Below the pieces are notes generated by a model that worked only from the letters and a program-made list of their open reading frames with translations, was not told the origin of the DNA and searched no databases. A DNA stretch of 64,000 bases from Campylobacterales bacterium (lineage in GTDB: Bacteria > Campylobacterota > Campylobacteria > Campylobacterales > Sulfurovaceae). The DNA is taken from the NCBI GenBank assembly GCA_014763895.1, contig JACXUM010000008.1, forward strand, positions 1 through 64,000. Reading direction: 5' to 3'. This document shows, in pieces, positions 45,422-50,984 of this stretch. Every line of letters starts with the position of its first letter. The stretch's first letter is position 1. Position numbers and translations under genes: made by a program.

Positions 45422-45453
45422 CTATCCAACTAGAAAAAGGACAGGCAGCAACG

Positions 45454-48383
45454 GTGGACAAGGTCACTCAGATACTTTCAGACAAAAAAAGCTTTTAACC
45501 GAGATCTATTTTGATCTTCAGCGCCATTTTGAAAAAAAGTACGGTAAAGATGCCCTCATACTAATGGAGATCGGAAGCTTTTTTGAAGTTTATGAAGTCA
45601 ATAATGATGACCTCAAAATCGGAAAGGCCAAAGAGATCGCCGAACTGCTCAACATTCAGCTTACGCGTAAGAATAAAGCTGTTTTGGAAAACTCCATTTC
45701 CAATCCTCTCCTTGCAGGAGTCCCTTCCGTATCGATCGAACGCTATCTTTCCCGACTTATCGCAACCAAAAAATACACGATCATTCTGGTCAAACAAAAA
45801 GGCGAAATGCCCAACGTCAAACGCTATGTGGCCAATATCATCTCTCCTGGCACCAATTTCGAATACCTCAGTGAACCTAACGAAAACAATATCGTCTCCC
45901 TCATCATCGACGAAAACATGGGTATCTACTCCGTAGGCTATGCCGCGATCGATGTCAGCACAGGCAAAACGATCACGAACGAGATACATTCTACCAGGGA
46001 TGATAAAACCTATGCGCTGGATGAGGCATTCAATCTTTTACAGACCTATTCAACCGCGGAGGTGATCCTTACTTTTGAAAGCAAAGATATCGATCCTGAG
46101 TGGATCATCCACTATCTTGAGCTGGGAAGTATGCACTACAGTATCAACAGCAAACGTTTCAAAATCAACTTTCAAAATGAACTCTTCACACGCATCTTTC
46201 AGATCAACTCGTTTCTCTCAACAATCGAATTTTTAGATCTTGAACGCTATCCCTATACGACTGAAGCCTTAAGCATCCTGATAGATTTTATCATCGAACA
46301 TGACGAAAGTATCATCGAGAAGATGAACCGTCCTCATTTCCTAGGTTCCAGCCGTTTTATGTATATCGGCAACAATGCCATGGAACAGCTCTCTGTAATC
46401 TCGAGAGACCCGACAGAAATGACCCTGCTTGACCTCATCGATAAAACCTCAACGGCATTCGGAAAGCGCCTTCTTAAAGAGCGTCTTCTCAATCCCGTAT
46501 GCGACAGAGCACTGCTGGAAACACGCTATGATCTGAGCGAACGCCTTCTTCCCAATGTCGATCGTTTTGAAACACACCTCAAACAGATCTATAATCTTGA
46601 ACGGATCGCAAGACGGATCAAACTGCATAAACTCCATCCTGTTGAACTCACCTACATTGCCATGTCACTTGAATCGATCCTAAGACTTTTAGATGATGCC
46701 AAAGCAAATGGTCTCGAAGTGGAGGAATCCCTCTTTGATGCGGCGAGTGAAATACTTAGGGTGATTCAAGAAACTTTTGAACTGGACATGTGTGCCAGAT
46801 TCCGGATCGAACAGATCAATGACAATATTTTTAAACGCGGAGTCTATCCGACGATCGATACGATCGTTAGATCACAACAAAAAGAGGTTGATAAGCTTGA
46901 TAATGTCGCTGTACATGTAGACTCGCTCTTTGAAAAAGACAAACTCATTTCTGGCAGTACACGCTATACCACGGTCAACTACCTCGAGAGCGAAGGATAT
47001 TTCCTCAATCTGACCAAAAACCGTTTTACCCTTATTAAAAAAACACTCAAAGACTCTTTTGTCACGATAGAGAACCAGCATCATTTCTTTAAGGATTTTT
47101 CCTATAAGTACCTCAAAAATGCGGTTAAGATCCATGCTCCGCTTTTTGATGAGATCACCCAAACCTATGAAGCCTCACAGGTCAAACTAATCTCTCTTGT
47201 CAAACAGCGCTACCTAGAAAGTCTCGATATGCTTGAAAAGCGTTTCTCCCTTTTATTGGATAAGCTGATAGAGTTTATCGCGGGTATCGATGTAGCCATC
47301 TCCAATGCAAAATGTGCCAAGAGTATGAACCTTACCCGGCCGATCATTGAAAAAGGAAACTTTTATGAGGCCATAGGACTAAGACGCCCCATCATCGAAT
47401 CCAATGAAGAGCGTGGTATCTATGTGCCAAATGATATCTTTTTAGGAGAGAATACCCTCCCTTCGCATAACCACATCACACTCAATGCCAGTAACGAAGA
47501 AGATGTTCTGGGTGTTTTGCTTTATGGGATCAACTCTTCTGGGAAATCCTCTTTGATGAAAAGTATTGGGCTTTCAGTGATCCTTGCCCAAGCGGGTTTC
47601 TTTGTCCCGGCAGCCGAATTGCGTTTTGGACTCTACGATAAGCTCTTCACCCGTATCGTCTCTAAGGACAACCTCTATAAAGGTTTGTCAACCTTCAGCG
47701 TGGAGATGATGGAACTCAAAAATATTTTCAACCATGCCAACGCACGTTCGCTGATCCTGGGTGATGAGATCAGCCAGGGGACTGAAACACAGTCTGCTCT
47801 TGCAATCGTCTCTTCAACGATCCTCAAACTCCTCTCATTAAAATCGACCTTTATTTTTGCGACACATCTGCATCAGCTTGGCGACATTTCACAGCTACAG
47901 AATGTCAAACACCTTATCTTCCTGCATCTTGGGGTACGGTATGATGAATCCAGTGATCAACTGATCTATAACCGGGTACTGCAATTAGGCAAAGGAGACA
48001 GCCTCTATGGCCTTGAATTTGCCCGTTCTTTGCATATGGATAAAGAGTTTTTGCAGACAGCCAAAATCATTCGTGAGGATCTCAGCCATTCCCAAAGCGA
48101 TATTAAAATGATGAGCAATCAAAAAAGAAGCAAATACCATAAAGAGCTTTACATCGGCAAATGTGCGTTATGTGAAGAGCCTGTCGAGGAGGTACACCAT
48201 ATCGTCCAGCAAAAAGACGCTGATGAGAACGGCAACATAGACCACTTTCACAAAAACCACAAATACAATCTCATCCCACTATGCAAAAAACACCATCAGT
48301 TGGTGCATGAAAAGAAGATCGTAATCTCTGGATTTGTGATGACATCTGGAGGATTAAAACTGCATTATGAGATAAATGAGTGA
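45454..48383 (+). CDS. mutS: MutS7-type mismatch-repair ATPase fused to HNH nuclease, with A7 frameshift near the start
   Basis: The body (from ATG 45564, 939 residues) has the mismatch-recognition domain [16 protein letters not shown], connector, lever and clamp domains, an ATPase with Walker [10 protein letters not shown] (about residue 655) and [10 protein letters not shown], and a C-terminal HNH nuclease (about 867-925: [24 protein letters not shown]). This MutS-HNH layout is that of octocoral mitochondrial mtMutS and Campylobacterota MutS7. The open frame extends upstream of 45564 as [20 protein letters not shown], clearly coding, but without a start. GTG 45454 ([12 protein letters not shown]) leads into A7 (45484-45490) in a frame that stops at TAA 45496; one added A or a -1 slip joins the two. 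Possible decay, sequencing error, slippage or phase variation. Confidence 0.88.
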
Positions 48384-49006: not shown

Positions 49007-50817
49007 ATTTTACCTTCTTGAAGTTGTTGTTTTAATTTTACCATAAATTCGTCTTTTGTAAGATTATATTGTTCTTTGGCTCTTCTGTCACGTATTGCAA
49101 CGCTTTGGGTATTGACCTCTTCATCCCCAAGTACCACTACATACGGCACTCTCTGCTTTTCTGCTGTTCTGATTCGCTTGTTAAGAGAGTCATTTTTATC
49201 ATATACCTCAACATCAATGTCTTCCATCATCAGCTCTTTCTTAAGCGTATTGGCATACGCTACATGACTCTCAGCGATCGGAACGAAGATCACTTGTGTC
49301 GGTGCCAAGAAGAAAGGGAACTCTCCGGCATAATGTTCTGTCAAGATAGCGATAAAACGCTCAAAAGAACCCAAGATCGCTCTGTGGATCATAACAGGCT
49401 GCTTCCGCGTGTTGTCTTCAGCGACATACTCCACCTCAAAACGCTGAGGGAGGTTAAAGTCAACCTGTACTGTACCACACTGCCACTTTCTTCCAAGCGC
49501 ATCCGTGATCTTCACATCGATCTTTGGCCCGTAGAATGCCCCCCCGCCTTCATCGATCGTATATGGAAGGTTATTGCCATCCAGTGCATCTTTCAAACCT
49601 TGTGTTGCCAGTTCCCACACGCTGTCTTCACCGATGGCTTTTTCCGGCTTCGTCGCGATCTCCATCGTATAGTTGAATCCAAAGAGCTTCATCACCGAAT
49701 CGACAAACTCAACCACCTCAAGAACCACACTGCTGATCTGTTCAGGGGTACAGAAAATATGGGCATCATCTTGCGTAAATTCTCGGACTCTTAGCAATCC
49801 GTGCAATACACCTGATTTTTCATGTCTATGCACAACACCGTATTCATAGAATTTTAACGGAAGATCACGGTAGCTTTTTTGTGTCTGCTTAAAAATCTGG
49901 ATATGTCCGATACAGTTCATCGGCTTGATACCGTATTCCTGTTCGTCAATTTCGGTTAGATACATATTTTCGCCGTAACATGCATAATGCCCCGATATTC
50001 TCCACATATCCGCCTTGAGTATCTCAGGGCCGCGTACCGGAACATAGCCTCTGATACGGTGTGCTTTATGGAGTATCTCTTCAAGCTTTACTCTTAGTTT
50101 TGCCCCTTTTGGCATCCAAAACGGCAATCCTGCACCTGCCTCTTCATTAAACATGAAGAGTTCCATTTCACTACCGATCTTTCTATGATCGCGTTTTTTA
50201 GCCTCTTCAAGCATCGTCAAATGCGCATTGAGAGACTCTTTATCCGCAAATGCGATCCCATAAATACGAGTCAGCATCTCAGCCTTCTCATCACCTCCGA
50301 GGTAAGCCCCTGCAACACGGGTCAACTTGAAGTTGTTGAGGAATCTCAAAGATGGTACATGCGGTCCCCTGCAAAGGTCTTCAAACTCCCCTTGCCTATA
50401 GATCGAAACTTTTTCATCCGGGATTCTGGAAAGAACTGCCTGCTTCAAGTCATCCTTGGCAAATTTTTCAAGCGCTTGGGCTTTGCTGATCTCATATTTT
50501 TCGATCGCATATTTCTTCTTGATCAGCTCTTTCATCTTTTTTTCGATCGTTTTGAGATCATCTTCGGATATTTTCTGATCTACCCTAAAGTCATAGTAGA
50601 ATCCTTCATCTACAACAGGCCCTACGAAGAACTGTGCATGAGGATAAAGCTCTTTGATCGCTTGCGCCATCAAATGGGCCGTTGAGTGACGGATAATCTC
50701 TAATGACTCATGAGAGTTGTCAAACTCTATAGGAGTTGCAGTGCTAGACTCCCCTGCACTTTGCGTGTCGATAATGTTACCCTGGTTGTCGATATAACCA
50801 ATAATATTTTCGCTCAA
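49003..50817 (-). CDS. thrS: Threonyl-tRNA synthetase
   Basis: 604 residues. The editing domain starts [16 protein letters not shown] with HxxxH; class II catalytic motifs are in [25 protein letters not shown] and [15 protein letters not shown], and the anticodon domain is at the C-terminus. The N-terminal TGS domain is reduced to about 30 residues, compared with about 60 in E. coli. Overlaps infC. Confidence 0.97.
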
Positions 50818-50908
50818 AATAAACCTTTAATCATAGTGGTATTTAACATAATGTTTAAAAATGGGGATATTATAACTAAAAGTTTGATAGAAATAAATTA
50901 AAAGAAGA

Positions 50909-50984
50909 TGGTGATCACGATTGGACTCGAACCAACGACCCCTACCATGTCAAGGTAGTGCTCTACCAACTGAGCTACGCGATC
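50909..50984 (-). tRNA. tRNA-Val (anticodon GAC)
   Basis: 76 nt; acceptor GATCGCG/CGTGATC with one G-U, anticodon loop TTGACAT, T-arm GGTTCGAGTCC, encoded CCA. Confidence 0.95.

Follow-up and report, generated by a model that had tools for sequence, protein, structure and literature searches.

We interpret the mutS7 gene found in the window, a stretch of 64,000 nucleotides from contig C39, as a recent loss-of-function allele in this strain, a reading to which we assign a probability of about 0.5. The genome it comes from (1.77-Mb, 47 contigs, 99.8% complete), that of a sulfur-oxidising-type bacterium, has its closest relatives in Sulfurovum. In the assembly the reading frame of the allele is lost around codon 13, and the distribution described below places this defect, the loss of one base, on the terminal branch. 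We consider a recent real inactivation more likely than a sequencing error; this ranking and the probability attached to it reflect our judgement and were not computed.

The gene opens with a GTG-started frame of 14 codons (45454..45498, + strand), the counterpart of the mutS7 N-terminus of relatives, cut off here by a TAA at 45496-45498. Its codons are GTG GAC AAG GTC ACT CAG ATA CTT TCA GAC AAA AAA AGC TTT TAA. In the leader of this start (45431..45453, + strand), reading of the sequence revealed a candidate ribosome site, AAAAAGGA, about 12 bases upstream. The body of the gene lies in another frame (45489..48383, + strand), which reads ...CAA AAA AAG CTT TTA ACC GAG ATC TAT TTT GAT... and is open from before the A7 tract (45484..45490, + strand) through 48383. 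The first ATG, GTG or TTG of the body frame is the ATG at 45564..45566 (+ strand), located inside domain I (MEIGSFFE), which is not the start used by intact relatives. Direct reading of 45454-45498 thus bears out the original prediction of a GTG start running through A7 into an in-frame TAA, and also its claim that the body itself lacks a usable start, given that initiation at ATG 45564 would lose conserved N-terminal residues. A downstream start backed by homologues and preserving the full domain I was not found, this ATG being already inside the domain. The proposal that one added A or a -1 slip would join both frames was correct insofar as -1 at A7 gives the exact conserved sequence and length; the A8 ancestor that it suggests is not required. 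The lost base may be either A or G, because A8 minus an A and AAA AAG AAG C minus its G both result in A7GC.

The 964-aa stretch that follows the tract matches the Pfam families MutS_I (residues 16-123, 42.7 bits), MutS_III (81.6 bits) and MutS_V (141.7 bits), each above its cut-off, while MutS_II stays below it. At the C-terminus no Pfam match to HNH was obtained at E 0.001, though the translated residues resemble the HHNH pattern described for MutS7 (PMC3166940). Elsewhere in the window, an Rfam match to the HPnc0260 antisense RNA (50798-50947, + strand) overlaps a tRNA-Val gene on the - strand (50909-50984).

Homologous joints were collected from mutS7 loci of the genus Sulfurovum and the order Campylobacterales, together with 80 loci from GTDB species; the resulting table had 107 rows, from which four were left out as spurious motif hits, leaving 103 distinct joints. 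Start and body are continuous in a single frame at all 103 of them, in Sulfurovum as well as in other Campylobacterales, and comparison at the tract found none of these relatives out of frame. Apart from separately broken genes, relatives have a start, GTG in most of them, the motif VDKxxEILSxKKKLLTE and the MEIGTFFE of domain I in one frame, so that the continuous frame from the conserved start, interrupted in the window by the stop at 45496-45498, is present in them. Since start and body form one protein everywhere else, the broken joint is not due to chance, and since the frame is broken only in the window assembly, where the tract is one base short (an A or an interrupting G) against all 103 joints, the loss is placed at the tip of the tree. 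The A run at the joint is 7 long in 28 rows, at least 8 in only 4 and shorter in all the others (below 8 in 99/103 joints), with the longest run ranging from 2 to 11 and many runs interrupted. These short runs arise because the lysines are coded by AAG as well as AAA, and several relatives carry the codon pattern AAA AAG AAG C. When viral contigs were searched with exact 20-mers for another copy of this joint, two matches came up, both in an unrelated gene.

The body of the gene shows how little time a real lesion could have had. Neither additional stops or indels nor a loosening of constraint, the expected signs of decay, were found there, and its 939 codons contain no stop. When 50 mutS7 proteins are aligned, the window sequence has only 4 changes at 514 otherwise near-invariant columns, and its tip branch measures 0.171 substitutions per site; drift without constraint over a large part of such a branch would be expected to leave many more. 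These figures do not support an old, decaying pseudogene, and the earlier idea of a decay scar is tenable only in the form of a very young lesion. Because the body lacks decay, the lesion is either very young or an error; in other words, either the loss of the frame is very recent or the cell still has it intact.

To what extent the assembly itself could be responsible was assessed by setting 736 kb of the window genome against 2.0 Mb of a closed, single-contig relative, G016, the lesions being called by eye on protein alignments. Five of the conserved genes sampled carry lesions that look real, mutS7 included. The others are a P-type ATPase broken at CAAAAAAAGG (about position 19100 of L143, contig C18), where an A7 stands in place of the A8 that the frame requires, the same lesion type as in mutS7, and three accessory genes: a NifX-like gene one base short at AAAAAG (C16, 57526-57956); a small protein that has both a nonsense codon and a frame-shifting additional A (L126, 12479-12740, contig C1); and an outer-membrane protein with more than one lesion (C2, 39288-40012). 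In the reverse comparison no real frameshift was detected in 551 genes of G016, the apparent ones having been rejected as spurious antisense or over-extended frames. The window genome contains 125 A8/T8 runs in the 736 kb, and 76 A/T runs of at least 8 fall inside its conserved-gene alignments. The ratio of A/T runs of at least 8 to runs of 7 is 0.25, close to the 0.29 of G016 (p = 0.23), and a global shortening of homopolymers was accordingly rejected. Of the 394 genes that reach 65% identity, no other than mutS7 was noted as broken, and a test of uniform error by gene conservation gave p = 0.12. Since long A/T runs are not generally short and mutS7 is the sole broken gene of the 394, a poor assembly is ruled out, while an isolated miscount is still compatible with the data.

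Such a miscount, with the consensus one base short and the cells carrying an in-frame tract in an ordinary intact mutS7, is the most serious competitor of a recent inactivation, and we regard it as a real though lesser likelihood. Sequencing error, one of the readings offered by the original prediction, survives on account of a body constrained right to the tip, of the second A7-for-A8 lesion and the one-base loss at AAAAAG, and of the clean result obtained for G016 with the same test. The P-type ATPase in particular counts against a real lesion in mutS7 because an undercalled homopolymer gives the same pattern, and the very youth that the intact body demands of a real lesion is perfectly mimicked by an error. 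What weighs on the other side is that A8 runs are not generally scarce in this assembly, that lesions are rare in it, and that each of two other broken genes carries multiple lesions, the pattern of a true pseudogene. A real lesion is further supported by the 103/103 joints in frame, by the lack of any broad shortage of long A/T runs and by the frequency with which mutS7 is hit in the genus (see below).

Three other explanations are much less likely. A reversible phase-variable switch, in which A7/A8 slippage toggles the gene off and on in the population, would fit a 5' A tract with an early stop when off and a frame restored by one added A, a genome without a MutL above the family cut-off, and the toggling of coding runs in MSH3 (A8) and MSH6 (C8) in mismatch-repair-deficient human tumours (PMC11250277). 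However, none of the 103 homologues is off, a run of at least 8 A occurs in only four and many are interrupted by AAG codons, and contingency tracts tend to be longer than A7/A8. As a conserved feature the mutator switch suggested originally is therefore not supported by the relatives, and we find it improbable; a private, reversible A7/A8 change may nevertheless occur in this strain. Still less probable is that the full protein arises at A7 from transcriptional slippage or a programmed -1 ribosomal frameshift, despite the exact conserved sequence and length that a -1 shift would produce and the precedent of Citrobacter tssM1, rescued via transcriptional slippage at A11 with an efficiency of about 20% (PMC4256274). 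The zero frame reads GAC AAA AAA AGC, where re-pairing of both tRNAs one base back is not possible at C_AAA_AAA or at A_AAA_AGC, and no X_XXY_YYZ slippery heptamer exists in that frame at the joint. Downstream of A7, pseudoknot-free folding was no better than for shuffled sequences (z -0.28 and -0.37), no relative (0/103) needs or uses recoding, and the tract is much shorter than A11; the slippery site of the original prediction found no backing in any of this. The least credible explanation is a shortened functional MutS7 started at ATG 45564, which does open a 939-codon frame but drops N-terminal residues kept in intact relatives and has no clear ribosome site ahead of it.

How often mutS7 is broken elsewhere in Sulfurovum was surveyed with the first third of the gene as query, starting after the A tract and hence no test of the joint itself. 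Matches were obtained in 58/78 species, or 31/40 among good genomes; G034 and G071, each 99% complete, had none. There is an in-frame TAG in the finished genome that we take as Sulfurovum NBC37-1 (G024; L008), with the remaining frame intact, and a frameshift in UBA4779 (G033). In G075 the gene is in two parts 23 kb apart on one contig (C1:2108534-2132871), the break being located at codons 25-29 counted from KLLTE, and a stretch of about 5 kb next to the first part contains three Phage_integrase matches, the insert having been located by search alone. At the same codons 25-29 the gene is split in G063 (L105, 1-2010; contig C20), where ahead of the mutS7 body stand a tyrosine recombinase and a protein of 187 aa that has no Pfam match. 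A further split, at about codon 65 from KLLTE, was found in G098 (L079, 394-2000; contig C11), adjoining a 494-aa protein on the opposite strand with a weak Phage_integrase match; the lacking N-terminal part sits on another contig of this genome, whose estimated contamination is 10%. For comparison, uvrA, a gene of similar length, had internal stops in 0 of 34 matches over the cut-off in 37 genomes searched, which partly overlap the genus. On this evidence mutS7 is dispensable in Sulfurovum and often broken, independently in several members of the genus, and because of this a real lesion is likelier than the error rate alone implies; the genus context mildly favours it.

If the recent loss of function is real, one base would have been lost in the 5' stretch of lysine codons, either because A8 slipped to A7 or because an interrupting G dropped out. 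Ribosomes starting at GTG 45454 would then halt after 14 codons, and no full MutS7 would be made, barring rare slippage or weak internal starts. We infer that the cells truly lack the base and have lost MutS7 function. Two MutS_V proteins were detected in this genome, mutS7 and one on C2. Should MutS7 perform mismatch correction here, alleles of this kind would be mutators, and their arising and then dying out would explain the young look of the lesions. A truly missing base would make this strain a natural mutS7 knock-out in an organism without recognisable MutL, and its mutation rate against that of an intact relative would bear on MutS7 as a self-contained mismatch-repair enzyme; if it is a sequencing error, the gene is an ordinary one. 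The more interesting lead is the recurrent breakage of mutS7 across the genus, mobile elements included. We would tentatively extend it, as an unlikely but worthwhile idea, to the 5' end of mutS7 being a recurrent inactivation target in Sulfurovum, through base loss in the tract, point lesions and insertions of recombinase elements at codons 25-29 and about 65, with lineages switching MutS7 off repeatedly, perhaps reversibly in the manner of SpyCI with mutL, and becoming transient mutators without MutL.

MutS7, a MutS with an HNH domain, occurs in Campylobacterota, in octocoral mitochondria and in giant viruses (PMC3166940). The window protein resembles it in domains I, III and V and in having close relatives throughout Campylobacterales, and its C-terminal residues may be of the HHNH type; its allele is out of frame in the assembly. 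With tssM1 of Citrobacter rodentium (PMC4256274) it shares an A-run followed by a premature stop, whereas the run is A7 against A11 and the rescue by slippage is a feature of tssM1. The silencing of MSH3 and MSH6 in mismatch-repair-deficient tumours by a one-base change in a coding homopolymer (PMC11250277) is similar in that a MutS homologue is affected, reversibly in principle; there, however, tumour clones were concerned, against one bacterial assembly here, in which the mutS7 tract is not conserved and a single tract length is known. The G075 insert, with about 23 kb and three integrase-family genes at one end, recalls in gene layout, the only level compared, the GInt islands, which have three consecutive tyrosine recombinases and ginD at one end (PMC5385486). 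Finally, SpyCI islands sit in the 5' end of mutL in Streptococcus pyogenes (PMC3430984, PMC4689407), and whereas the window has no such element, the inserts of G075 and G063, likened to them by gene layout, are in the same way recombinase-bearing sequences splitting the 5' end of a mismatch-repair-type gene.
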